64,000 bases of DNA. Source: Candidatus Brocadia sp. Lineage in GTDB: Bacteria > Planctomycetota > Brocadiia > Brocadiales > Brocadiaceae. The stretch spans positions 1-64,000 of the forward strand of contig SOEU01000012.1 of the NCBI GenBank assembly GCA_021646415.1, given 5' to 3'. Positions 7,470 to 22,194 of the stretch are shown piece after piece; position 1 is the first letter of the stretch, and every line of letters starts with the position of its first letter. A program made the translations under genes and the position numbers. The notes under the pieces were generated by a model, which was not told the origin of the DNA, ran no database searches, and saw nothing but the letters and a program-made list of their open reading frames with translations.

Positions 7470-8786
7470 GTGATTATCAATCCTGAACAAATCAAGACTT
7501 TTGTCAATACAAACTACCCTTACCTCGGCGTAAATAAACAGCAAGAGGTCTCCCGGCTTCTGTTTGAGATTGCCAAGCGTGAACGCATAGATTATACAGA
7601 GGTAGCTGAGCGCTTGCCAAAACCACCAAGTCGATTTTCCCTGCTGAAAGATTATCTTCTGAAACGACGTTATCCATCTCTTGCCGTTAAGGGCCATAAA
7701 ATCAGGCCGTCTTTTCCCGATATTAGCATTAATCCGGCATTGCAAGTGGATGTTACTTTGAAACCGCGGATCAACCCCGGAAATCTGTTCATAGAAGAAT
7801 CTGTTTTGCATACTGAAATGGTGAAAAGGGTAGTAGCTCAATTCCCAAAGAGCAATATTGAAATAATCAAGACTTATAAAGAACATACGGAGAAGAAACA
7901 GTTTAGCATCGAAGACTATAACAGAAGGTCAGAGAATTTTTACCTTGTGCGCGAGAACTATGATTTCTATAAACGGTGTCCTTGTTCCAGCAAATCTGCA
8001 TCATGTGGTTATTTTATTGTTAATCTGGGAAGTGGATGTGTGTATGAATGCTCTTATTGTGTTTTGCAGGATTATATCAATTCACCCGGCATTATCCTGC
8101 CAGCCAATATCGAGGACTTTTTTTTGGCTTTTCAGAATTTGAAGCATGACATCCGTTGCGGCTCGTGCGAGTTAACCGATTCTCTGATCTTTGATCACAT
8201 TACAGGATACTCACCGCAGATCGTCGAATTCTTTCGTCACTATCCCAGAAGCACGTTCGAGTTTAAAACAAAGAGCGATAATATCGGGCTTTTGACCTCA
8301 GTGCCGGGGGCAAACAATATAGTCGTCTCCTGGTCAATGAACCCCCAGCTTATTGTGGACACCGTTGAATATTTTACCGCTACGTTACCTCAACGTTTAG
8401 CAGCTGCACAGAAATGCGTTGATTGCGGATACAGGGTCGCCTTCCATTTTGACCCGATTATTTACTACCCAGAATGGGAAGCCGATTATGAAACATTGAT
8501 TAATGACATCTTTGATACCATCGATGGAGGAGATATCGCATGGATAAGTCTTGGAACACTGCGCATGACACCACGACTGAAAAAGATCATTGAAAATCGT
8601 TTTCCAGATAACACAATACTCGATGAGGAATTTTTCGTTGGCCACGATGGCAAACTCAGATATCCACGGGATGTTAGGGCTTTCATATACAAAAATATGA
8701 CATCCTGGATTCGCAAGCGCAGTAAAGACGTTCCTGTTTATCTGTGTATGGAAGAAAAGTCAATGCATTTAGACCATGCAACTTAA
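7470..8786 (+). CDS. Spore photoproduct lyase-like radical SAM protein
   Basis: The 438-residue protein contains the radical SAM motif CVYECSYC (Cx3Cx2C) at about residues 191-198, within GSGCVYECSYCVLQDYINSP. This is the spore-photoproduct-lyase (SPL) type and not a generic CxxxCxxC neighbour. Downstream FTD-like elements (ELTDSLIFDH), SWSMNP and FHFDPIIYYP are also SPL-family features. SPL repairs thymine dimers in spores, but non-sporulating bacteria carry homologues of unproven role, so repair of DNA lesions here is inference. The GTG at 7470 is the only usable start because an in-frame stop lies just upstream. An extra N-terminal ~150 residues includes a helical region before the core. 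Confidence 0.82.
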   Translation: MIINPEQIKTFVNTNYPYLGVNKQQEVSRLLFEIAKRERIDYTEVAERLPKPPSRFSLLKDYLLKRRYPSLAVKGHKIRPSFPDISINPALQVDVTLKPRINPGNLFIEESVLHTEMVKRVVAQFPKSNIEIIKTYKEHTEKKQFSIEDYNRRSENFYLVRENYDFYKRCPCSSKSASCGYFIVNLGSGCVYECSYCVLQDYINSPGIILPANIEDFFLAFQNLKHDIRCGSCELTDSLIFDHITGYSPQIVEFFRHYPRSTFEFKTKSDNIGLLTSVPGANNIVVSWSMNPQLIVDTVEYFTATLPQRLAAAQKCVDCGYRVAFHFDPIIYYPEWEADYETLINDIFDTIDGGDIAWISLGTLRMTPRLKKIIENRFPDNTILDEEFFVGHDGKLRYPRDVRAFIYKNMTSWIRKRSKDVPVYLCMEEKSMHLDHAT

Positions 8787-10442: not shown

Positions 10443-10742
10443 TTCAGTAGTAAATCAGATCCGAGGCAACTTTTCTGATCACCAGGACGCCGGGTTACAG
10501 CGAAAAAAACTATTCATCAATTTGTCATATACCAGAAATATTTCTTTTATAAGGCACTGTATTTTTCTCAAATAAGCCATACTTTGGAAATGAAAAACTC
10601 GTTTAGGAATGGCGTTTCTTTCATTTAAAAGAACCATTGCATGTCCGAAACGTCGCTCCGATTGTATACCTGGAGGTTATCATGCCGGTCGTCCCTGCAT
10701 ACTCCACCAGAACAAAGCCCACACTCTTCATTAACCCGACAA

Positions 10743-10759
10743 GATCCCGAACCGGGATC
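10743..10759 (-). promoter_or_regulatory. SECIS-like hairpin after the second in-frame TGA
   Basis: On the coding strand gatcccg-gtt-cgggatc forms a perfect 7-bp stem with a GTT loop. The loop starts 18 nt after the TGA at 10771-10773. Bacterial SECIS elements are described as short stems with a G in the first two loop bases, lying roughly 16-37 nt after the UGA, so the geometry fits. A 7-bp hairpin can also arise by chance. Confidence 0.35.
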
Positions 10760-11193
10760 GCACCCCCAATTCAGTCCGACCAAGTCTCAAGACTGTTAAT
10801 TATCCCGGCAGGAAGATCCAACTTCAAGACGATATCTGCAAACCGAAGACGGCCATTGGGCTTAAGGATGCGGTATATCTCCCGAAAACACCTCTCCTTC
10901 ATTGGTAAGAAATTCAGCACGCCATTGGAAATCACCACGTCAAAGACGCTGTCGTAAGGGATCGCTTCAGAACCCGCAAGATGAACTGCGCCATTAGACA
11001 CACCCGCTCATCTCAGGTTCATCCGGGCGCTCTCTACCATTTCCGGCGTAAGGTCAATTCCGCATACCCGTCCCGTTTTACCAATAAATCTACTTGCGAC
11101 GATGAGGCCAAATCCTGCGCCACAGCCTACGCCCAGGATGGCCTCTCCAGGATTAATCGGGCCAAGGGAGAAGGGATTCCCTACATTAGCAGA

Positions 11194-11250
11194 ATAAATG
11201 GCACCTACCCAATCTGGAAAGAAAAAACCTGATGTACCAATCTTAATCAT
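11194..11250 (-). pseudogene. 5' fragment of a DUF72 (YecE-like) gene
   Basis: The 19 codons MIKIGTSGFFFPDWVGAIY match the start of DUF72 proteins, not of methyltransferases. They are fused in frame to the methyltransferase remnant. The rest of a DUF72 protein (from PDNIKKGEMLPYY) lies at 20405-19644 on the same strand. The two pieces together would give one complete protein, in permuted order on the chromosome. Confidence 0.65.
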
Positions 11251-11288
11251 ACCTTATGAGGTTGAAGAATCTGTGTAATTTTAATGGT

Positions 11289-11477
11289 CTAGACATTGAG
11301 TTGCATAACTCCAACGCATTTCGTTCTGACATTTGAAACCCCTTCACACCCCGATCGAAACTGAGCTTCGAGGTTGCGAATGAGCAATGAAATTTGTTCA
11401 TCCATTTCTTTTAGGTTTGAGGCAGCATGATTTTCTTTCCATTCTTGTTGCATGAGAAGTTCAACATCGCTTTTCAT
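11289..11477 (-). CDS. Possible small hypothetical protein, 62 aa
   Basis: The frame encodes a hydrophilic helical peptide (MQQEWKENHAASNLKEMDEQ). It has no recognised family and no convincing Shine-Dalgarno, and lies in a repeat-rich, gene-poor stretch beside the integrated element. It could be a real regulator fragment or chance. Confidence 0.2.
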   Translation of the reverse strand: MKSDVELLMQQEWKENHAASNLKEMDEQISLLIRNLEAQFRSGCEGVSNVRTKCVGVMQLNV

Positions 11478-11536
11478 TTGCCTGCCCAGTAAAATGAATT
11501 CTTTATATAATTCTTTTTTTATTAACCAATGGTTTT

Positions 11537-11657
11537 TTAATCCCGAAGAGATAATATATTCTTGTTATTGTTGTTCTTGCTATTATATTCCACCTCTTCG
11601 GGGTTATATGATGTATTGCGGTTTTTTCCTATAAGCATATCATCCCTTCGGGATTTT
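11537..11657 (-). repeat. Dispersed repeat copy (cccgaaggg / ccccgaagaggtg family)
   Basis: Read on the minus strand it runs aatcccgaagggatgatatg, ttataggaaaaaaccgcaat, ataaccccgaagaggtggaa and ends tctcttcgggatt. The same sequence of modules occurs on the + strand at 63857-63967. The arms tcccgaa/ttcggga make it partly self-complementary. No coding capacity is seen; it behaves as a non-autonomous dispersed element. Confidence 0.7.
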
Positions 11658-11687
11658 TTTTCTTTCGCATTCCCCGAAAAGAGTTTT

Positions 11688-11713
11688 AACCACAAAACAC
11701 GAAGGTCACGAAG
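11688..11713 (+). repeat. Short 'aaccacaaa...cacgaag' repeat
   Basis: The sequence aaccacaaaacacgaaggtc followed by acgaag resembles a simple repeat seen again, inverted, at about 61680-61710 (tttgtgttctttgagtcttt, gtggttaa). It is non-coding and probably a degenerate dispersed repeat. Confidence 0.4.
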
Positions 11714-11849
11714 AAAAGCTTACAAAAAGGCATGAAAAAGAACCTTTTCATACCATGCCGTGCAAAAACTCCTTCAGTTTTATCTGCATCAGATCTATGT
11801 CTTGTAAATACGTTGTTACTTTCCAGTGTTGTAAAAAACCCGGTACTTT

Positions 11850-12004
11850 TGTCGTACCGAATCATAAAAAGATATCGAAAAATGGTGAAAAGGGACAAAG
11901 ATTAAATTCCTTTGAATGACCCAGAGATTACTGGTAAAATCAAGGCATACCGAACACAGTAAACGCGCATAAAAGCCTGAAAACAGCCTGGAAATAACTA
12001 TTTG
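11850..12004 (+). repeat. Left copy of a ~155-bp diverged direct repeat flanking the element
   Basis: The block cgtaccgaatcataaaaa ... taaattcctttgaatgac ... is about three-quarters identical to 21913-22067. The last 34 bp (11971-12004, starting aaaagcctgaaaacagcctg) are identical to 22034-22067. It lies just outside the integrase-proximal end and may be a scar of an earlier integration at the same target or part of a duplicated target. Confidence 0.75.
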
Positions 12005-12068
12005 TTATTTGCCTGTCTTCTGTAAGTCTTACCGCAACAAGAGTATATAAAAACCTGTATTTGCCCAT

Positions 12069-12087
12069 GTCGTACTTATGCCGTACC
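12069..12087. other. Left attachment core (attL candidate)
   Basis: gtcgtacttatgccgtacc is identical to 21903-21921. It contains the last two sense codons and stop of the integrase on the minus strand. Inverted GTAC half-sites (cgtac-n5-ccgtacc) fit a tyrosine-recombinase core. The exact crossover cannot be read without an empty site. Confidence 0.6.
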
Positions 12088-13242
12088 CGCTTGGGATATC
12101 ATCGGTGTTACAGCCCTTTCACTCATGGTTAGGATATGGTCTGTTAAAGCCTGTGATGCCTTTCTCTTACTATCTAATCCAATATGGGAATATTTCAAGG
12201 TCATACGCAGATCGCTATGTCTCAGCATTTCCTTTACGGTAACGGCGCCGGTTCCCAAGTCACCCTGTAAACTGGCGAAGGAATGTCTTAGACAGTGGTA
12301 AGTAAAGCCATGAATTCTCAGTTGTTCAAACAACTCTTTAAAATGCTTACTACGGCATGTAATGAGCGACTGGTTTATTTCTGAATCCTCAAACAGATTA
12401 TTGCTTTTACAATTGCCCTTATAGCCTGTTAGTTCCTTTAGCATGAAATCGGACAAGGGAACAGTCACTTGTTTTCCTGTCTTGGATTGAGTAAGCGTTA
12501 ACAGGTTTCTGGTAAAATCAAAATTATCCCATGTTAACTTTAATGTTTCGTTTAGCCGTAATCCACAAAACAAGCCAAGTAAGACTGCCATACGGTCACG
12601 GCCTTGTAATGTGTTCAACAATATACGTATCTCTGATTCAGATAAAACCCTGTCTCTGGACTGCATTGCCTTTAGCCGTTTAACGTCCTTACATGGGTTT
12701 CCATCAATGACGCCCTCTTTTATGGCCGTATTGTATAAATGCGACAGTATAGCCAGGTCATGATTAACCGTGATAGCACCTACTTTGTCTGTTTCCTGCC
12801 TGGAAAGCTTGAATCGCTCAACGATAAACGGTGTCAATTTATCCAGCCGATAATCCCCTAAATACTTCGTTAAGGCATTTACCGCCCGCTCTCTTCCAAG
12901 TCGTGTGTTTTCTTTATCACTTTTGTAATGCTCTAAATATCTTTGGCAATATTCGGCAAGGGTAGAAATAACCTTTTTCTTTGGCAATTGCAGTTTGCCA
13001 CGTTCCCGATCACCAATAAACATAGCCAGTCGTTTCTCTGCTTCCGTCTTGTTCCTTACGTCCTTGAAGGTCAGGGATTGCCATTCCTTCCGATCGTCAA
13101 AGAATTCAATGCACCATGTCCCACAGGTCTTATACTGTCCGTTTTCCTTCTTAGGCCGATCCCCTGGACAATACTTCCCCTGTCTGCCATTACAGGGAAT
13201 AGGCTTACATTGCTGGAAATATTTGCGATACCTAACAGCCAT
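12076..13242 (-). CDS. Tyrosine recombinase/phage-type integrase
   Basis: The protein catalyses site-specific integration and excision of the surrounding element. The catalytic domain shows the conserved Arg (GLFCGLRLNETLKL), Lys (SKTGKQV), HxxR (HCLRHSFASL), second His (LRHSDLRM) and the Tyr nucleophile (TLKYSHI). A SAM-like core-binding domain lies at about residues 70-170. The first 45 residues are Cys-rich (Cys at about 12, 17, 25, 40 and 44) and could bind zinc, which is unusual. The start at 13242 (MAVRYRKYF) has aggacgg upstream; an earlier ATG at 13365 adds residues with no family character and covers GTAC-rich regulatory DNA. The 3' end overlaps the attachment core. Confidence 0.92.
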   Translation of the reverse strand: MAVRYRKYFQQCKPIPCNGRQGKYCPGDRPKKENGQYKTCGTWCIEFFDDRKEWQSLTFKDVRNKTEAEKRLAMFIGDRERGKLQLPKKKVISTLAEYCQRYLEHYKSDKENTRLGRERAVNALTKYLGDYRLDKLTPFIVERFKLSRQETDKVGAITVNHDLAILSHLYNTAIKEGVIDGNPCKDVKRLKAMQSRDRVLSESEIRILLNTLQGRDRMAVLLGLFCGLRLNETLKLTWDNFDFTRNLLTLTQSKTGKQVTVPLSDFMLKELTGYKGNCKSNNLFEDSEINQSLITCRSKHFKELFEQLRIHGFTYHCLRHSFASLQGDLGTGAVTVKEMLRHSDLRMTLKYSHIGLDSKRKASQALTDHILTMSERAVTPMISQAGTA

Positions 13243-13376
13243 TGTTTCACCGTCCTTTCTGAAATAAAAAAGGCAACTAACACCCTGTAGGACGGTACAG
13301 GATGCCGTTGCCTTCGCTACCTGGTAAGCCGGGTACCAGGTATTATATTCATGCGTTCCGTCCAACGCCTCATTTT

Positions 13377-13395
13377 CCGTACGTCCTACCGTACC
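13377..13395. promoter_or_regulatory. GTAC-rich site upstream of the integrase
   Basis: ccgtacgtcctaccgtacc resembles the attachment core (cgtac-n5-ccgtacc, here with a 6-nt spacer). Further GTAC sites at about 13333 (gggtacc) and 13293 (cggtac) lie in the leader between the HTH gene and integrase. They may be integrase/excisionase arm sites or operators for int expression. Confidence 0.35.
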
Positions 13396-13429
13396 TTTTC
13401 AGTTATTGCAAGGATATTTTTATTTCTTT

Positions 13430-13879
13430 TCATGTCTTTTCATGAGTCTTTATTTCTTCTACATGTATTTCTTTTAAAAGTTCCTCTTTGCGTTTACGAA
13501 TTTCCTCTAACGATGCTTGAAATGTGAATTGGTCGTGAATCTCCGTTGCCTGGCCTTTTGTAAGCCTATTGGCGTTAAAAACTTGCTGGAACGTATAAGC
13601 AGTATTATTGAGACTAGCCTTTTGTAAAGTCTCTGGGTCAAGCATCTTCTGTAACATCTCCATTTCAATACTGCTTAGAATAGCCGACTTGTTTTCTTCG
13701 TATGCCCGGAGTACATCAGGGTCTTTGAGAATAGCCAGAAACTTGGATAAACGTTGTTGTACCGCTTGTGCGCTGCAATCGAATCTTTTCCCTATTTCCT
13801 CAAAGGATAATCTATGCTTAATACGCAATTTTAACGCTTCCTCAACATCAATCTTTCGCTCAATTTTAGGTAATGGCAT
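13430..13879 (-). CDS. HTH DNA-binding protein, possibly small-terminase-like
   Basis: Residues about 12-45 (ALKLRIKHRLSFEEIGKRFD, then CSAQAVQQRLSKF) form a clear helix-turn-helix. The rest is helical and charged with a Lys/Glu-rich tail (EEIRKRKEELLKEI). HTH plus helical oligomerisation region is the layout of small terminase subunits and of some element regulators. No large terminase is present, so a regulatory role in the element is as likely. It lies just upstream of the integrase on the same strand. Confidence 0.5.
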   Translation of the reverse strand: MPLPKIERKIDVEEALKLRIKHRLSFEEIGKRFDCSAQAVQQRLSKFLAILKDPDVLRAYEENKSAILSSIEMEMLQKMLDPETLQKASLNNTAYTFQQVFNANRLTKGQATEIHDQFTFQASLEEIRKRKEELLKEIHVEEIKTHEKT

Positions 13880-13958
13880 TGTTTACCTTTCTTATTGTTA
13901 ACTGTTTTTATCTATCCTTTTTTCTTTTGACGTGTTTTAGTGAAATTGGTATTATTCT

Positions 13959-14162
13959 ATGAGACGTATGAATGAGAAACAAAAGACCAATCTTGCCAAA
14001 TTCTTTTACGATATAGCCAAGATTGATTTTGCTGCCTTAGTGGTAGCTCAATTTGCAAACCCTGCTAATTTAAAATACTGGATATTGGTTGTTGGAATAA
14101 TAGCAACCATAATCCCGGTTATCGTTGGTCTCGTTATTGATAAACAGGAGACAGAAAAATGA
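13959..14162 (+). CDS. Small membrane protein (DUF6722-like)
   Basis: The 67-residue protein starts MNEKQKTNLAKFFYDIAKID and has one or two hydrophobic helices (FAALVVAQF; YWILVVGIIATIIPVIVGLV). This resembles short proteins annotated DUF6722; function unknown. It is the only transcription unit on the + strand inside the element and overlaps the next small ORF by ATGA, so both are probably translated together. The Met at 13968 may be the real start. A holin-like or sensing role is speculation. Confidence 0.5.
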   Translation: MRRMNEKQKTNLAKFFYDIAKIDFAALVVAQFANPANLKYWILVVGIIATIIPVIVGLVIDKQETEK

Positions 14163-14260
14163 CAGGACTTGGAATTATTTACGCCATAGTGATCGTATCT
14201 TGCCTTATTTTTCTTGCCTGGTTGAAATACAGCCAGAAGCATTCTAAGCATACGCATTAA
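14159..14260 (+). CDS. 33-aa single-span membrane microprotein
   Basis: ATG overlaps the stop of the preceding gene (ATGA). The peptide MTGLGIIYAIVIVSCLIFLA is one transmembrane helix followed by a short basic/His tail (WLKYSQKHSKHTH). The translational coupling and clean hydrophobic segment support a real gene. Function unknown. Confidence 0.45.
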   Translation: MTGLGIIYAIVIVSCLIFLAWLKYSQKHSKHTH

Positions 14261-14358
14261 TGCCATTGCAAGACCGTCCAGATCATCCAGCAAACCGCCC
14301 TTGTTAGTTCAAAACTTATCATCCAGAATAGAAAGTCATACCAATTCATATTCATTCC

Positions 14359-15203
14359 TTAATTGCCGGAAAATAAGGACTTCTGTTTAACTGTGAAGTT
14401 GCAGAGTAAAATTTCTTTCGTTACTGGCTTAGACTCACCTGTAGACTTGTGACTACCCTTAAAAGATTGATACTCATACCGATTCCAGCCCTTGTATAAT
14501 TCATCGTATAGGCCATTCTGATAGTGTGAGACATAACTTTACCCTTTACCGCGCTCAAGAGTTCTGCAAGCTTATAGTGGCCTTCCTGGCTAAAGAAATC
14601 ATTACCGTAATAGTGTTCTGCATTCAAATAAGGGGGGTCACAATAAAACAGGGTGTCTTGACTGTCATACCGTTTGATACATTCCGCATAAGGTAAATTC
14701 TCAACGGTAACGTTCTTAAGCCTTCTGGCTACATCCTCAAAGGTATCAATTGCCGTTCTAAATGATTGTGCTGGATTACGGCCAGTTACGGAAGGTATTG
14801 CAAACCCGCCCCGCTTCTGATCACCGGCAAAGGTAGTTTTATTGAGATAATACCACCATGCCGCCCTATCAATCTCATCTACAGGGATATTTCCAGCCTT
14901 CCACCTAAAACGTATATCTTGCCAGAGTTTTCTTGAATACAGCATGCTATCAAGTGTTTGTATCAGCTTTGACCTTTTCGTATCATTCCTTAAGAGTTCA
15001 AAGAAACCTATCAAATAACCGTCAATATCGTTTATAACTTCCACCTGAGAAGGTTCTTTGGCAAAAAATAAATGTCCAGCCCCGCAAAACGGTTCACAAT
15101 AAAGTGTATGCTGTGGTATATGCTGGACAAGAAAATCCCGCAAATAGAATTTACCACCAAAGCGATTAACAGGACTCTTTAAGGCATTACTCATTTTTGT
15201 CAT
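14359..15203 (-). pseudogene. DNA adenine methylase (D12 class), frameshifted near its C-terminus
   Basis: The protein would methylate adenine N6 in a short DNA site. Residues show SPVNRFGGKFYLRDFL and PFCGAGHLFFAK (SAM binding), NDIDGYLIGFFELL and the catalytic DPPY in TLFYCDPPYLNAEHYYG. After KGKVMSH the frame is broken: an extra 'ac' in cacac near 14530 shifts it, and the current frame stops at 14421. Reading the alternate frame restores the family C-terminus (YQNGLYDELYKGWNRYEYQS) and runs to a stop at 14359. Loss of this target-recognition end should impair activity. In elements such methylases often protect DNA from host restriction. Confidence 0.8.
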
Positions 15204-15330
15204 TCTTTATTTGTTCTGGTTTCTTTATACCTTTTTCAATAAGCAGTTCATCAAATATCTTTTCTTGCTCTCTCTGAAACTCAGCCCATTCCCTTTGGAG
15301 TTCTTCCTTGCTCTTTCTAATGTACATCAT
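15187..15330 (-). CDS. 47-aa charged helical protein between excisionase and methylase
   Basis: The frame MMYIRKSKEELQREWAEFQR is followed by a Glu/Lys-rich helix and ends EQIKNDKNE. It overlaps the excisionase stop by 14 bp and the methylase start by 17 bp, which indicates a tightly coupled operon. It has no recognised family; a coiled-coil adaptor is possible. Confidence 0.45.
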   Translation of the reverse strand: MMYIRKSKEELQREWAEFQREQEKIFDELLIEKGIKKPEQIKNDKNE

Positions 15331-15526
15331 TTGCCCCTTGAATATGCGATTCAATCCACTTATCCAAGTCCTGACGTCTGAATCTGTTTAGCCGTCCGAT
15401 TTTCACAAACGGTATTTCACGTTTCATACACATTTGATAGACCTTGCTAAGCTTAATACCTAAATAGTCACCCGCTTCTTGTGGGGTAAGAAGCTTGCCG
15501 TTGAATTTTTCTATTTTCTCATCCAT
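15317..15526 (-). CDS. Excisionase-family HTH protein
   Basis: The 69-residue protein has the MerR/excisionase-like winged helix: LLTPQEAGDYLGIKLSKVYQ and IPFVKIGRLNRFRRQDLDKW with the typical R(F)RxxDLDxWI end. It would bind DNA to bias the integrase towards excision or act as an AlpA-like regulator. It is three bases from the PC4-like gene and overlaps the 47-aa gene. Confidence 0.85.
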   Translation of the reverse strand: MDEKIEKFNGKLLTPQEAGDYLGIKLSKVYQMCMKREIPFVKIGRLNRFRRQDLDKWIESHIQGANDVH

Positions 15527-15528
15527 AT

Positions 15529-15759
15529 TTAGCCCTCTTTATTAAGTTTTATATGTCCTTTTGCCTTTTGAAGTATGTTTACCAATTCGCTTATTTTTGC
15601 AGGTGGTAACGTTATACCTTTCTTCGTGAAACACCATTCGTCTTTATCGTTCAAGAAAAAGGTACGAATGTCCAGGTAATCAAAGCCCTTGTATTCCTTC
15701 ATAGACACCAGTATCTTTTCACCTTCCTTCTTACAAATTTCGCCTATCACGTTCGACAT
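15529..15759 (-). CDS. PC4-like (transcriptional coactivator p15) ssDNA-binding protein
   Basis: The pattern KGFDYLDIRTFF followed by a polar turn, WCFTKKGITLPPAKISELVN is the PC4/Sub1 fold signature (DIR-x-W-x-TKKGI-L). Bacterial and phage PC4-like proteins bind single-stranded DNA and can aid replication or recombination. Position between the origin-like GTACCC repeats and the excisionase suggests a role in element replication, which is inference. Confidence 0.7.
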   Translation of the reverse strand: MSNVIGEICKKEGEKILVSMKEYKGFDYLDIRTFFLNDKDEWCFTKKGITLPPAKISELVNILQKAKGHIKLNKEG

Positions 15760-15827
15760 TTTTTTTTACCTCTCAAAAAGTTAAAGCTGAATAAATCAAA
15801 ACAAATAAAAGAAAATCAAAATAACTT

Positions 15828-15931
15828 CGTACCCTTACGTACCCTTGTACCCATAAGTCTGGAAAGTCCCTATACGAGAAAAATCTAAAAAACTTTAGAG
15901 AATTAAGGGTACATGGGTACGCATGGGTACG
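15828..15931. promoter_or_regulatory. Mirror-image GTACCC triplets, origin or operator candidate
   Basis: 15828-15852 carries three GTACCC motifs (cgtacccttacgtaccc then ttgtaccc). 15907-15931 is its reverse complement with three mismatches in 25. Between them lie 54 bp rich in A/T (ctaaaaaactttagagaatt). It sits in the only noncoding gap of the replication block, upstream of the PC4-excisionase operon and past the end of the primase/helicase gene. Iteron-flanked AT-rich DNA fits a replication origin; a repressor operator is the alternative. Confidence 0.5.
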
Positions 15932-15962
15932 GATTTCACGTTTGTTTAATGCCGATACCTTT

Positions 15963-18088
15963 TCAAAAATTACCCCCTGATTTCACTTTTTCTAAACCCC
16001 GTTCTGCCAACCGTAATCCAAAAATACGTTGCGTTAACAGGAATTCACCATTACTTTCACACCATTTTTTATATAATTCATACAGGTCGCCTGCTTTAGC
16101 TTTTACCTCTGGTGTTAAAATGCAACATTCTGAAAGAAACGCCCCGATAACGTCCATTTCCTCACGACAACTATTCGTTGCGGATTTTACCTCATCGGGT
16201 GTTTGCAGTCCAATGCGCTGCCATTCAAGGCAACCCTGGACAGCCCAAACAAGTATCCCAGGCATTTCGTCTTTCAACTTCTCCAAAAGTTTGGGATCCT
16301 TTTTGTCTTCTGGAATGGTTACGGTAAATGGAATTAGCCGAATACGTCTCCTTGATATTAGGCTTATGGTTAGCGGCCAGCCATATCTTGAATGTTGGTC
16401 GAAAGTCGAAATACTCACCGAAAAGGAATCTTGCCGTAATGGTATCCCCGCCTGTTAGCTGTTTGATTAATACTTCAGCCAGTCGCCTTTCGCCTTCTGT
16501 TTCAACAGCTGAAATAAATCGTTTGCCTGTCATCCTTGCCAGGTCGTTTCGAATTGTTTCGTTTTTTCTGATAAGAAATGTTTCAAAATCCGCAGCCTGT
16601 GCATAGTCACCAAGCAACATCCCTAAACATGCCAAGAAAGTAGTTTTGCCGTTACTTCCTGTACCATGTAAAAGAAAAAGGCATTGTTCGGAAACATCAC
16701 CTGTCAGGGCATACCCAATAGCCCTCTGCAAATACCGAATAAGGTCGTAATTCCAATTAAAAATGGTTTCAAGAAATTCAATCCATGTCGGACAGGGAGC
16801 TCTTGGATTGTATTCGGCAGGTATTATCTTCGTGATGAAGTCTTTCGGATCATGCGGTTTGAGTATTCCCGTTTTCAGGTCAATCAATCCATTAAGGCAA
16901 TTTAGAAAGTATGCACCAACGTCAAGCTCTTGTGGTGAAATCGGAATACCCGGTTCACTTTGTGCAAGCGATACCATAGCATTTAATCTATGTTCTGATT
17001 CGCTAAATACTGCCCACTTAGCTATACTCTGCCGTTGTTGTGTATCGATGATCGTTGCTGCTTCCGTGTAGATTTGTTTAACGGTGTCCTTTGCAAGTCT
17101 CAGAATTTGGCCATTATTGTCAATGTGCCAGGTCTTGTCGTCCCAAATAAGCCATTTCTTCCAGGCAAAGCAATATCGGATTATGTGTCCGTATTGTGAA
17201 ACCAGCCTTTTGGCGTTACCCAAATCAGTACAATTAAAACTAACAATTCCCGTTAGTTCATATCTATAAGCAGAATTGAGAATATTTTTAACTTCTGTTT
17301 CTGACAATGGCGGATTACACCGCTTTTGGTTTTCAGCTTCCAATGTGGATAATGCCGTATCATAGGACACATCCTTTGCCCTGAGACTACAGGCAAGCTT
17401 AAATAGCGTATCATTCCGTTGACCTTCGGGGATAGAATTATTTGCCGTTCTCGGAACAGTTATCTTTTCGCTGATATTCCGTCTGTTAAACACCCATGAC
17501 GGCACTTCTGGCAAGACTATATCTGGATTAACACCATTCATAACGCCTCCCGCTAATATGTACACTGGGTGGGGCAACGACATAACCACCCTCTGCCTTT
17601 ATATCGACCTTATTGACGAAGCCTGGCTGCGTTTTTATCGGCGTCTTTGACTTAAAATAGTAATGTACCCCCCGGCCTGTTCTCACGCATGGTACTGATT
17701 CATTTTGCAAGTCTTTAATACGTTCCCGACCTAAAGCCTCAAAGCCCTCATCGCCGTCAACATCGATGACCACAAGACCACTTTTACCACCAGTCACAAG
17801 ACCGATATTGCTTGGTAAAGCTGATTCTTTCGGCCACCACTTTTTAATCTGCTCAATATCTGATGTGGCGTCCTTTAGTCCATTTTTAGTTTTTGGATGT
17901 TTACCTGGACTTTCACAATCTTTAGCCATGCCACAGGTACAATAGCCTTTCTGGTTAATTGTGTGTAATGGAATGACTGGCCACCCTAACGCTGCATAAT
18001 CCAAAGCATATTTTAAAAATACTTCGCTTTCTGTTTCGTTGGTAAAATGATTTCTTTCAGGCATTTCTACTGTCTCCTGAACACTCAC
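15963..18088 (-). pseudogene. Prim-pol / P4-type primase-helicase, broken by two frameshifts
   Basis: Three overlapping frames make one ~700-residue protein. 18088-17528 encodes the bifunctional primase/polymerase domain (GWPVIPLHTINQKGYCTCGM, VVIDVDGDEGFE, GGYVVAPPSVHISG). 17589-16225 encodes the linker, D5_N-like domain and SF3-type helicase with Walker A LLHGTGSNGKTTFLA and ISAVETEGERRLAEVLIKQL. 16418-15963 encodes the helicase C-terminus (RRIRLIPFTVTIPEDKKDP). The first break is one extra base near 17535 (tggtgttaat for tgggttaat). The second is near 16350, where the usual D-x-x-IW stretch between KET and RRIRLIPF is deleted. This would be the element's replication initiator; it cannot now be made whole. 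Confidence 0.85.
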
Positions 18089-18236
18089 ATTTTTTATTTT
18101 TCAAGAAAGCCTCAATCGCATTCCTAAGAGTTTCTGATCTGGATTGCCCCATTTTTCTGCTAACCTCAGTTAGTTCCCTATGCATTTTCGTTGGAATCAA
18201 ACCTTGAACAAATCTGTAACCGTCTTTTACAACCAT
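18057..18236 (-). CDS. CopG-like ribbon-helix-helix regulator, 59 aa
   Basis: The frame MVVKDGYRFVQGLIPTKMHR ... MGQSRSETLRNAIEAFLKNK has an initial beta strand, then helix-turn-helix spacing typical of CopG/Arc repressors. It overlaps the prim-pol start, so the two are probably co-translated. It is the likely regulator of element replication or copy number. The Cys-rich tail (CECSGDS) is within the overlap. Confidence 0.6.
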   Translation of the reverse strand: MVVKDGYRFVQGLIPTKMHRELTEVSRKMGQSRSETLRNAIEAFLKNKKCECSGDSRNA

Positions 18237-18256
18237 AACTTAAACCCCCAAATAAA

Positions 18257-18310
18257 AAAATCCTTCGCAAATAAAATCGTTAAGACAACGACCAATCTGC
18301 GAAGGATTTT
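18257..18310 (-). terminator. Nested hairpin downstream of the zinc-ribbon gene
   Basis: Outer arms aaaatccttcgca and tgcgaaggatttt are perfect 13-bp complements. An inner tcgtt/aacga stem sits in the loop. A/T tracts on both sides allow termination on either strand. It separates the zinc-ribbon gene from the CopG-like/prim-pol operon. Confidence 0.7.
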
Positions 18311-18371
18311 ATTAATTTATTAATACTTTTGCAAAATTATCGGGCAATAGCTTTAATCAGGAATAAAGCCA

Positions 18372-19604
18372 TTACCTATCAGTTGTTGGTTTTAAATGAT
18401 CATCAATGGTTTCTCCGTTTCTTACCGCTTCTTTAGCCATAATCTTGGCTTCTTCTTTAGGATAGCCACGTTCTTCGAAGTAATGAGTAAGTTTAGAAAT
18501 TTTATTATTTACCTCACTTATTTTTTTACGCCTCTTGCATTCTTGTGAAGCCTTACTATTCTTTTTTCTGGAAGGTTGATTAAATATGTCTTCGCATCCT
18601 TTACAATACTTTCTAGGCTGTCCTTTGCTTTTAATTCTTATAAAGAATGTCCCACATAACGGGCATTGCTTTAAACGTGAGTGTAATTCCTTATTGTTAA
18701 TTCCGAAATCCAGAATACAGGCATAAATCGCATGTGGTATCATACCGTAGTGTGGAAATGGTTTTTTATATTGCATACTATCCATTACCAGAGTATTCCT
18801 ACCTCTGTATTTCCTTCCATCAAATGTTTCCTCGTCTTCTGCCGGTAATTCGTCCTCTTTCCACCATTCCAAATAAGGTTTTCTGATTGTTTCCATATAA
18901 CTCTGTAAAACTTCACTTGCAGGACGTTCGTTATCATAAGTTTTTGTATTCCATACGAGATTAGCAAGAATTCTGGATAATTCACCCCGTATATCTAGTA
19001 ATTGGCTGTAAAACCTATTTTCAAAATGTAGTTTCCATTCGTCAGAGAAGTTAAAACTTCCGGGAGGTTTAATTTCTGGGTTTAAAGATGACAAAGGACG
19101 TCCATCTTCCGTAACGAGTTCATCGCCTCTTTTAGGTGTTATTCCAGCTTTTAAAAAGAATTCCTTAAAATCCTTAAGACTTGGAGCAGCATTAATGCCG
19201 CCAAATATTATATCTTTTTTTGAATCGAGTCTTTTTAGTACTTCCGAATTGTTTTGCTTTGGAACAATTTTTTCACTTTTTTTGACCATATCCTCATAAT
19301 AATCTATTAGTTCATGGTGTTCCTCTAGTAATTTTTTGCGCCTTTCTCTTAACTTTTTAAGTTCTTCTTCTATCTTGGAAATGTTAATAGTTGGCTTCTT
19401 TTTTATGATCTGCCATTCATAGCCTGTAACTTTGTTTATGATTCTGTCGTGTTCGAGTACAAGGTGTGATACATCCTGTGGCAATGGTGGACGCTTAAGG
19501 TATCTGCGTTCATAAGGAAACATATACTGGTTGGGATGCCCAGGTTTACTCTTTATGTTGAGAAAATCTAAAACCCATTGAACGGTCTCTGGTATGTCTT
19601 CCAT
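18372..19604 (-). CDS. Unknown protein with coiled coil and C-terminal zinc ribbon
   Basis: The 410-residue protein is not assigned to a named family. Residues ~65-110 are a strong coiled coil (IEEELKKLRERRKKLLEEHH). Residues about 317-345 form a zinc ribbon CPLCGTFFIRIKSKG ... KYCKGC (CxxC-x15-17-CxxC), like the CGNR type seen in putative nucleic-acid-binding regulators. A basic tail follows (KKNSKASQECKRRKKI). Shine-Dalgarno tggaga lies before ATG 19604. It stands alone between the terminator at 18257 and the DUF72 body, and may be element cargo or a regulator. Confidence 0.6.
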   Translation of the reverse strand: MEDIPETVQWVLDFLNIKSKPGHPNQYMFPYERRYLKRPPLPQDVSHLVLEHDRIINKVTGYEWQIIKKKPTINISKIEEELKKLRERRKKLLEEHHELIDYYEDMVKKSEKIVPKQNNSEVLKRLDSKKDIIFGGINAAPSLKDFKEFFLKAGITPKRGDELVTEDGRPLSSLNPEIKPPGSFNFSDEWKLHFENRFYSQLLDIRGELSRILANLVWNTKTYDNERPASEVLQSYMETIRKPYLEWWKEDELPAEDEETFDGRKYRGRNTLVMDSMQYKKPFPHYGMIPHAIYACILDFGINNKELHSRLKQCPLCGTFFIRIKSKGQPRKYCKGCEDIFNQPSRKKNSKASQECKRRKKISEVNNKISKLTHYFEERGYPKEEAKIMAKEAVRNGETIDDHLKPTTDR

Positions 19605-19643
19605 CTGTCATTTCTCCAATAAATGACTCTCCAAGAGTAAGAA

Positions 19644-20405
19644 TTAAGGGAAACCGTTGGAGTCGGCTTTTCCCTCAATTAACTTTAACATCTCAATTGC
19701 ATTTTTAACCGACTTCCCTGCATGGCAGTTAATAAACAGAACTAAGGTATTCCTGGTAGTGCCGGATATATTCTTTATATCGGGTACGAAAGACTTCAAT
19801 TCTTCTGACGTGTACAGATAGTCATATCGTTCTGCTACTGATGCATCAAACCAGTTCGTATTCCTGCCATGAAACCTGAAGTATCCCAGGTCGGTTGTTG
19901 CCGTTGGATTATATGGCATAAGACCTTTGAGTTTGGGTTCGTCTACGATACAGTATCCAATATTGTTCTCTTTAAGAAATGTCAGACCTCTTTCGCTATG
20001 CCAGTAATAGTTCCTAAACTCTACCAACAACGGTATGTCTTTCAGTCTCTCTTTGAAAGTCAGGAGGTAGTTATAGTTGTCCTTTACTGCATGAAAGCTA
20101 TAGGGGAATTGAGCAAGGACTGCGGTTAGCCGGTTCTCTTTCTTTAAAGGTTCGATGGCATATAAGAAGCGGTCAAAGGCATCTTTATTATCAATGAATG
20201 CCCCTGTATCTTTATCCCGTATCTCATGGGTCATGGACTTATGCGCCTTGACGGTAAACTCAAAATTGGGAGACGTCTTTTTTAGCATGCCTTCAAAGGA
20301 TTTTGGGGAGGGAATTGTATAATACGTGGAGTTAATTTCGGTTATTTTAAATCCAAGATGCTGTTCGTAATACGGAAGCATCTCTCCCTTCTTGATATTG
20401 TCAGG
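19644..20405 (-). pseudogene. DUF72 (YecE-like) protein lacking its N-terminus
   Basis: From MLPYYEQHLGFKITEINSTY on, the sequence is a normal DUF72 TIM-barrel protein (FEFTVKAHKSMTHEIRD, VLAQFPYSFH, LLVEFRNYYW, YFRFHGRNTNWFD). Upstream codons PDNIKKGE are also DUF72-like, but the first ~20 residues are missing and are replaced by the end of a lipoprotein gene. The missing piece is found at 11250-11194. A start at 20381 could still yield a truncated protein of 245 residues, lacking the first strand of the barrel. DUF72 function is unknown. Confidence 0.75.
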
Positions 20406-20899
20406 GCTTTTCCTGTGATATTGTTCCCATTTTGCTCCAGGTATGCGGTGACTGAATCACTACCCCATTCTGGAATTGTTAAATATCCTTTCCAAGTACC
20501 GGCAATATTTATTTGTGTTGAAGTTGCTATCGGTGTTGGTGTTGGCGTTGGTGTTGATGGTAGTTTTATTAATGTAACTCTTTCTAATTGATAGCTATAC
20601 TCGGCTGATACAGTAGTAAAATCTATTTCTTTTGTTAGGCTCTGATATCCTGATTTTTCATACTTAAATGTATATTTTTGTGGTTTAATACCTTCGTAAA
20701 AACTGCCAAGAGTATACCAACCATTTGCATTTGTAGTGTCAGTAAATATATTATAATTATCTTTTGTGCTTACTTTAACATTTTCCAATGGTACATCATT
20801 TTCATCGTAGACATAACCATAAACTTGTAAGTCCGCATACGCATTTATCTGTGTGAATAAAACGAAAATGAATAATATTCCCCAAGTTAACCTTTTCAT
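20342..20899 (-). pseudogene. Secreted carboxypeptidase-regulatory-like protein, C-terminally truncated
   Basis: A signal peptide (MKRLTWGILFIFVLFTQINA) precedes a carboxypeptidase-regulatory-like module (VYGYVYDENDVPLENVKVST) and a Pro/Thr linker (STPTPTPTPIATS). A second domain starts IAGTWKGYLTIPEWGSDSV and breaks off in LEQNGNNITG, where similar proteins continue for tens of residues. The frame then runs out of register through DUF72 DNA (SRRERCFRITNSILDLK) and stops. The layout echoes the repetitive protein at 3-1016. It is exported but truncated. Confidence 0.65.
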
Positions 20900-20935
20900 T
20901 TTTAACTCCTTAAGTCTTGTATACGAATCACATGC

Positions 20936-21199
20936 TTATTTATAAATATCCCGCCTGTGCCCTATTTTGTGTACGGTAATAACTTTCTTGTTATGGTCTA
21001 TTTCATAAATAATTCTATAGTCTCCAACTTGTAATTTATAGAAATCAGCAAGGTTACCATGTAAGTGCAATAGGTTTAATGCCTCAACATTCTCAGAAAG
21101 CCATTTTAATTTGCTGGTAATTCTTTTCGCCGTTCTTTTCTCAATTTTTGATAACTCATCAATTGCTTTTGGTTGAATGATTACGCGGTACTTATTCAA
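20936..21199 (-). CDS. RelE/ParE-family toxin
   Basis: The 87-residue protein has the type II toxin fold: YRVIIQPKAIDELSKIEK, LADFYKLQVGDYRIIYEID and VHKIGHRRDIYK. RelE-type members cleave mRNA at the ribosome, ParE-type members poison gyrase; the sequence fits the RelE-like group (YRIIYEID, HRRDIY). It overlaps the upstream antitoxin gene by 8 bp, the standard TA order. It probably stabilises the integrated element. Confidence 0.88.
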   Translation of the reverse strand: MNKYRVIIQPKAIDELSKIEKRTAKRITSKLKWLSENVEALNLLHLHGNLADFYKLQVGDYRIIYEIDHNKKVITVHKIGHRRDIYK

Positions 21200-21416
21200 G
21201 CCCCAGTTCCTTTACTACCGTTTCAAGTGGGATTCCCTTTTCTTTCTTCTTTTTTGATTTCAGCAATTCCTTTTCAACCTCTGGTCTCAATTCAAATCCA
21301 TAATCAGGATCGATAACCTCTAAGACCGTGTCTTTTATAAGTTTCTTAAACTCTCTCACAGTCATATCACTTATTTTTTTATCTGATATTTTTTTACCTA
21401 ATGTCTTTGAAGCCAT
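21192..21416 (-). CDS. Antitoxin partner of the RelE-like toxin
   Basis: The 74-residue protein is charged and helical, with DMTVREFKKLIKDTVLEVID (a typical antitoxin DNA-binding or dimerisation segment) and a toxin-binding-like tail EKGIPLETVVKELGLE. It lies directly before the toxin and overlaps it. Family assignment rests on context and on similarity to short RelB-like antitoxins found with ParE/RelE toxins. Confidence 0.75.
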   Translation of the reverse strand: MASKTLGKKISDKKISDMTVREFKKLIKDTVLEVIDPDYGFELRPEVEKELLKSKKKKEKGIPLETVVKELGLE

Positions 21417-21438
21417 TTCTTTTCCTCTTTATTCCAAC

Positions 21439-21487
21439 AAAAAAGGCCAATTGCAGAAGGTCATGGCTTCCACAATCAGCCTTTTTT
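21439..21487. terminator. Long hairpin upstream of the antitoxin
   Basis: aaaaaaggc pairs with gcctttttt, with inner pairs attg/caat and gaag/cttc. A/T tracts on both sides would allow bidirectional termination, insulating the TA operon from the element end. Confidence 0.55.
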
Positions 21488-21902
21488 ACATGGATGTTTC
21501 CATCCAATCTAATCACCGTCCTGTATGACCATGACTCATAACAGGTACAGGTTGTTTTGCCGGTATTCTAACAACTTTACTCTACTTGTCAAACCAAATA
21601 CATCTTATCAAAGGTCTTAATTAACCTCTTAAATTCAAAAATACCCACCAAAAAGCTTTGGAAAACACATGTTTTTAACAGTCGGATTGCTTACATCGAC
21701 CTAAACCACGTTTGCCATACTTAGGATCGTTTTTATCGCATTAAAACGCTATTTTAAACAGCAAAAATATTCCATCCCGCCGTTTTCCATGCAACCTGAA
21801 ATGCGAAAATTTTTCGCTTAAACCCTTTTTGCTGTTTTTCTATCACAAGGGGGTATTATTAAAAATGTCCATGCATGTAATGTCCATACCCCCCTTATTC
21901 AT

Positions 21903-21921
21903 GTCGTACTTATGCCGTACC
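21903..21921. other. Right attachment core (attR candidate)
   Basis: gtcgtacttatgccgtacc is identical to 12069-12087 in the same orientation, followed by taatcataaaaa. The left flanking repeat at 11850 starts with the very similar cgtaccgaatcataaaaa, so this junction type occurs twice. Confidence 0.6.
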
Positions 21922-22067
21922 TAATCATAAAAACATAGCAAAACTGGTAAAAACATACAAGAAGTAAATTCCCTTGCATGACTTGAAAATGCTGATAGAA
22001 TCAAAAGAAATTAGAAAATATCAAAAGACATAGAAAAGCCTGAAAACAGCCTGGAAATAACTATTTG
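21913..22067 (+). repeat. Right copy of the ~155-bp diverged direct repeat
   Basis: It is the partner of 11850-12004. The final 34 bp (22034-22067) are identical, and the block starting cgtacctaatcataaaaa is alignable along its length. It lies directly after the right core. Confidence 0.75.
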
Positions 22068-22194
22068 ACATTAAGATACTACTTTGATAGATTGAATTTT
22101 TAAATATTTACGACATAGAGTTTTCTATGACGGGATATAACACAGTAATAATCAACGTTTATATCCGTCCATTATTTTGCTTCCTAAAAATATC

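Follow-up and report, generated by a model that had tools for sequence, protein, structure and literature searches.

The 64,000-nucleotide window analyzed here carries, on the minus strand at 11250-10621, a reading frame for an ArsM-like methyltransferase. Two in-frame TGA triplets interrupt it, at 11010-11008 (residue 81, context NLR*AG) and 10773-10771 (residue 160, context WSD*IGGA), exactly as an earlier sequence-only reading of this DNA had placed them. A third TGA at 10623-10621 is the normal terminator and is common to G003, a genome of the same genus with an intact copy of the gene. Pfam and NCBIfam profile matches assign the read-through protein to the ArsM-type methyltransferases. 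Its best NCBIfam matches are NF047649, NF041537 and NF041536, families already named as selenoproteins, and all three fall below the curated cut-offs (161-199 bits versus 263-575), as does the intact G003 protein. The remnant itself was delimited to 11184..10624 on the minus strand by blastn against G003 and a second relative (G021), by NCBIfam and Pfam and by alignment. It corresponds to residues about 61-249 of the intact G003 protein with a DNA identity of 87%. It has a UGA at the selenocysteine (Sec) column and does not have the otherwise intact frame of the Sec-type ArsM-like proteins.

The homology to G003 begins abruptly at 11184 in the blastn comparison, and the N-terminal ~60 residues of the methyltransferase are missing. 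The 103 bp at 11287-11185 (minus strand; MIKIGTSGFFFPDWVGAIYSAN) resemble the 5' ends and upstream regions of DUF72 genes of relatives at 81-87% DNA identity and are fused in frame to the remnant. The first 22 codons are therefore a DUF72 start joined to mid-methyltransferase sequence, and the apparent start codon at 11250 is supplied by DUF72. No ArsM N-terminal piece was found elsewhere in the window, and a search of the assembly found no second full-length copy. SAM-binding motif I (11107..11136, minus strand) reads LGVGCGAGFG compared to LDVGCGAGFD in G003, so both Asp are replaced by Gly, extending the loss of the motif I Asp noticed earlier. One codon is deleted at 10950..10951 (minus strand), where G003 has YDDSTFD and the window copy YDSVFD. 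Using Candidatus Uabimicrobium as the outgroup, the nonsynonymous:synonymous counts are 22:10 in the window lineage and 4:12 in the G003 lineage (Fisher P = 0.006), indicating relaxed selection. The remnant still has a protein identity of 83-84%, and the decay is therefore fairly recent. Decay, initially considered plausible, is borne out by the truncation, the DUF72 fusion, the UGA at an Arg codon and the relaxed constraint.

The genome that supplies the intact reference is fragmented into 510 contigs. The contig concerned is 90.6% identical over 2 kb to another genus, so the origin of the G003 copy is uncertain. The window assembly is also a draft, in 42 contigs, and a base-calling error could yield one lesion. 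Assembly or sequencing artefacts masking a gene that is really intact are nevertheless highly improbable. The lesions are of several independent types, DUF72 DNA is joined on at a rearrangement junction, and the nonsynonymous:synonymous ratio is shifted across the whole gene; base-calling error would not produce the missing N-terminus, the junction and the nonsynonymous excess together.

An integrative element of ~10 kb (11971-22072) lies between 34-bp exact direct repeats (11971-12009 and 22034-22072) and encodes a tyrosine integrase, a D12-class adenine methyltransferase, and excisionase-like, PC4-like and primase/helicase proteins. Insertion of this element was considered as the event that split the methyltransferase gene and was rejected; its left end lies ~720 bp upstream of the frame, and the window holds no ArsM N-terminal piece. 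The two DUF72 halves are apart on the minus strand (11185-11250 and 19644-20385) in reversed order with the C-terminal half upstream, an arrangement that would result if circular DNA bearing DUF72 had integrated by a crossover inside the DUF72 gene at an AAT. The interval 11285-11970 is a patchwork of short dispersed repeats common to many genomes of the same family. Farther away, at 7470-8786 on the plus strand, is a spore photoproduct lyase-like radical SAM protein that scores far below the known SPL model cut-offs.

The first TGA occupies a position that is Arg in G003 and Lys in Uabimicrobium, consistent with the original remark that it lies off any Cys site. No SECIS-type hairpin was found after this TGA or after the terminal TGA, where the best stems are 4 and 3 bp. 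A double selenoprotein of the UXPK type was rejected on these grounds: neither the first nor the terminal UGA has a hairpin, a Cys/Sec column or a UXPK end.

The second TGA aligns to Cys224 of CmArsM (PDB 4kw7). Homologues were drawn from 392 searched genomes of the phylum and from a named GTDB scan, and the column could be scored in 114 of them: TGA is present in 31 distinct sequences, including the window's, and TGC or TGT in 83, with no other codon. The UGA is shared by the nearest relatives, which are G003 (full N-terminus and a single in-frame TGA at WSD-U-IGGA), Uabimicrobium, which like the window's organism is a planctomycete, and four Nitrospirae/Deferribacteres-type loci.

Downstream of this UGA is the hairpin GATCCCG-GTT-CGGGATC (10759-10743, minus strand), a perfect 7-bp stem with a GTT loop located 18 nt from the UGA, as first described. 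The 41-nt stretch containing it has an energy of -12.8 kcal/mol. The published bacterial SECIS model calls for a loop of 3-9 nt with an early G, a stem of 4-16 bp, a spacing of 16-37 nt and an energy <= -7.5 kcal/mol (PMC13188914), and the window hairpin satisfies it. When the codons of this peptide are replaced at random by synonymous ones, a stem of this kind arises in 0.6% of trials. All 22 UGA homologues tested in the phylum set have a hairpin, its stem 7-9 bp long and its short G-loop 17-24 nt past the UGA, whereas the 12 Cys homologues all lack one (stems <= 6 bp, mostly <= 4). The comparison with relatives that had been proposed thus comes out in favor of a Sec site. Energy z-scores of single hairpins are uninformative and covariation is informative. 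Stem cells are paired in 96.4% of cases across eight close sequences, with double-sided changes in 4 of the 7 pairs. The covariation score of 0.464 compares to a shuffled mean of 0.201 and is higher than in any of 500 shuffles or any slid control. In Candidatus Uabimicrobium amorphum the stem is GATTCCA/TGGAATC instead of GATCCCG/CGGGATC, and its retention accompanies two amino acid changes. On this comparative evidence, UGA 10773-10771 is beyond reasonable doubt an ancestral Sec codon.

The genome was examined by assembly-wide searches and in about 1.5 Mb of contig pieces for the Sec-decoding machinery, a check that had been suggested at the outset and came out mixed. selA (554 bits together with its neighbor), tRNA-Sec (selC, anticodon TCA) and selD are present. 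selD (G000:C1:182006-182932) scores 366 bits, one of the top values among the relatives, has an in-frame Sec TGA and is under strong purifying selection, with a dN/dS of 0.067 against the nearest relative (G005). In selA (G000:C9:1118-2602), sequence inserted in frame near residue 70 (KSPPYEGGEIGVVKSR) resembles a dispersed repeat, and the TIGR00474 match is split at this point. selB was the one component of the Sec-decoding trait that was not found. TIGR00475 gave a sub-cut-off match in the assembly, PF09107, which does have a hit in most of the genus, gave none, and querying with a SelB protein from the genus retrieved only EF-Tu and other GTPases. Three places in which relatives have selB keep their flanks here and lack the gene: beside accA (C12), as in relatives; between a LexA-RecQ block and YchF (C42/C13), the arrangement of G005; and beside a DUF4197-like gene (C35), the arrangement of G009. 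Readthrough of the Sec UGA in the present genome is doubtful because no selB was found. Persistence of Sec decoding without a recognizable SelB, in which another factor would deliver Sec-tRNA, is very unlikely. A very recent loss of selB, or its location in an assembly gap, is far more likely. The decay of the methyltransferase is independent of selB loss, because G021, a genome with selB, holds a second decayed copy that is independently frameshifted with several frame breaks.

These data also bear on the idea that the frame is a working selenoprotein gene, both UGAs being read as Sec to make a shortened methyltransferase. The retained selA, tRNA-Sec and selD with its conserved Sec UGA would fit, as would the good SECIS hairpin at UGA 10771. 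We consider this extremely improbable in view of the UGA at an Arg/Lys position without a hairpin, the loss of the N-terminal ~60 residues and of both motif I Asp, the relaxed selection and the failure to find selB in the assembly. The initial proposal of a selenocysteine arsenite methyltransferase or its remnant therefore stands for the ancestral Sec codon, the real SECIS hairpin and the decay, and does not stand for a working selenoprotein in this genome.

The window feature is best read as a pseudogene of a Sec-type ArsM-like methyltransferase, with a probability of about 0.93. On this reading, the ancestral product was a SAM-dependent methyltransferase whose single selenocysteine stood where ArsM has Cys224; the hairpin, SelB and Sec-tRNA directed its insertion at UGA 10773-10771. 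Rearrangement then cut off the first ~60 codons of the gene and attached what was left to the DUF72 5' end. Other lesions turned an Arg codon into UGA, replaced both motif I Asp and took out one codon; the order of these events is inferred, and the activity was probably lost along the way. The Sec codon and the hairpin persist as fossils.

The original substrate was evaluated from the ligand positions. CmArsM binds arsenite through three ligands, Cys72, Cys174 and Cys224 (PMC5552862). In 29 of the 31 Sec-type sequences the corresponding residues are Val, Gly and Sec, with Leu or Ile instead of Val in the remaining 2; the three ligand cysteines of a canonical ArsM are thus not found in the window copy. 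Among the 83 homologues with Cys224, Cys174 is kept in 79, and in 76 of those 79 Cys72 is clearly kept too. A tree computed with the Cys72, Cys174 and Cys224 columns masked unites the 31 Sec-type and four Cys sequences in one clade of 35 (support 0.92). The four Cys members (L114, L161, L162 and L168) have Val, Ala or Thr at Cys72 plus Gly at Cys174 and look, from their sequences, like Sec-to-Cys replacements. The window remnant groups within the Sec-type clade. This placement, the UGA in its nearest relatives and the covarying stems make it scarcely credible that plain nonsense mutations struck a Cys-type ArsM gene beside a chance hairpin, even though the first UGA is such a mutation and a comparable hairpin (Watson-Crick stem >= 7 bp, G-loop at 16-37 nt) also comes after 14 of the window's 2384 TGA triplets (0.6%).

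The Sec-type clade to which the pseudogene belongs forms a lineage of its own and cannot bind arsenite by the classical three thiols, because Cys72 and Cys174 are lacking. The residues at these positions leave arsenite unproven as the substrate of the clade and make the earlier assignment of arsenite doubtful. A lone selenolate that would act otherwise than in three-thiol arsenite methylation, perhaps on another substrate, is likelier than Sec decoding without SelB. The ligand-cysteine loss in this clade is unmentioned in the literature covered, which does not include the mSystems 2025 description of the UU families. The window captures a selenoprotein gene as it dies: the Sec codon and the hairpin can still be read, and the genome has selA, selC and a selD that itself contains Sec, while selB was not found. 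The database label 'selenocysteine arsenite methyltransferase' covers a separate clade with two of the three ligand cysteines gone, and this loss makes the substrate of the selenoenzyme a directly testable question.

The kind of gene is already known. Listings of a Sec-containing arsenite methyltransferase go back to 2008 (PMC2398784), and a 2026 review includes it as well (PMC13188914); the window copy is a decayed member of the Sec-ArsM families described before. It shares the fold and the C-terminal Cys224 site with canonical ArsM and CmArsM (PDB 4kw7 and 4fs8), with Sec at this site, whereas the Sec-type clade mostly has Val at Cys72 and Gly at Cys174. With the Sec-ArsM families NF008823 (UxxG), NF041536, NF041537 and NF047649 it has the methyltransferase domain and the Sec site (UxxG) in common, but it is truncated and broken. 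The intact G003 protein is single-domain and single-Sec, has none of the AhpD, DUF2284 or UXPK C-terminal parts of those families and falls short of the cut-off of each of the four models. The closest parallel for the genome is Yersinia pestis CO92, a recent loss of Sec decoding with a selB pseudogene, retained selA, selC and selD, and a stranded Sec UGA (PMC1273633). Like CO92, the window genome keeps selA, selC and selD without selB and has a UGA that is apparently undecodable. It differs from CO92, where a selB pseudogene is still visible, in that no selB is present in the assembly and in that the stranded gene bears further lesions.
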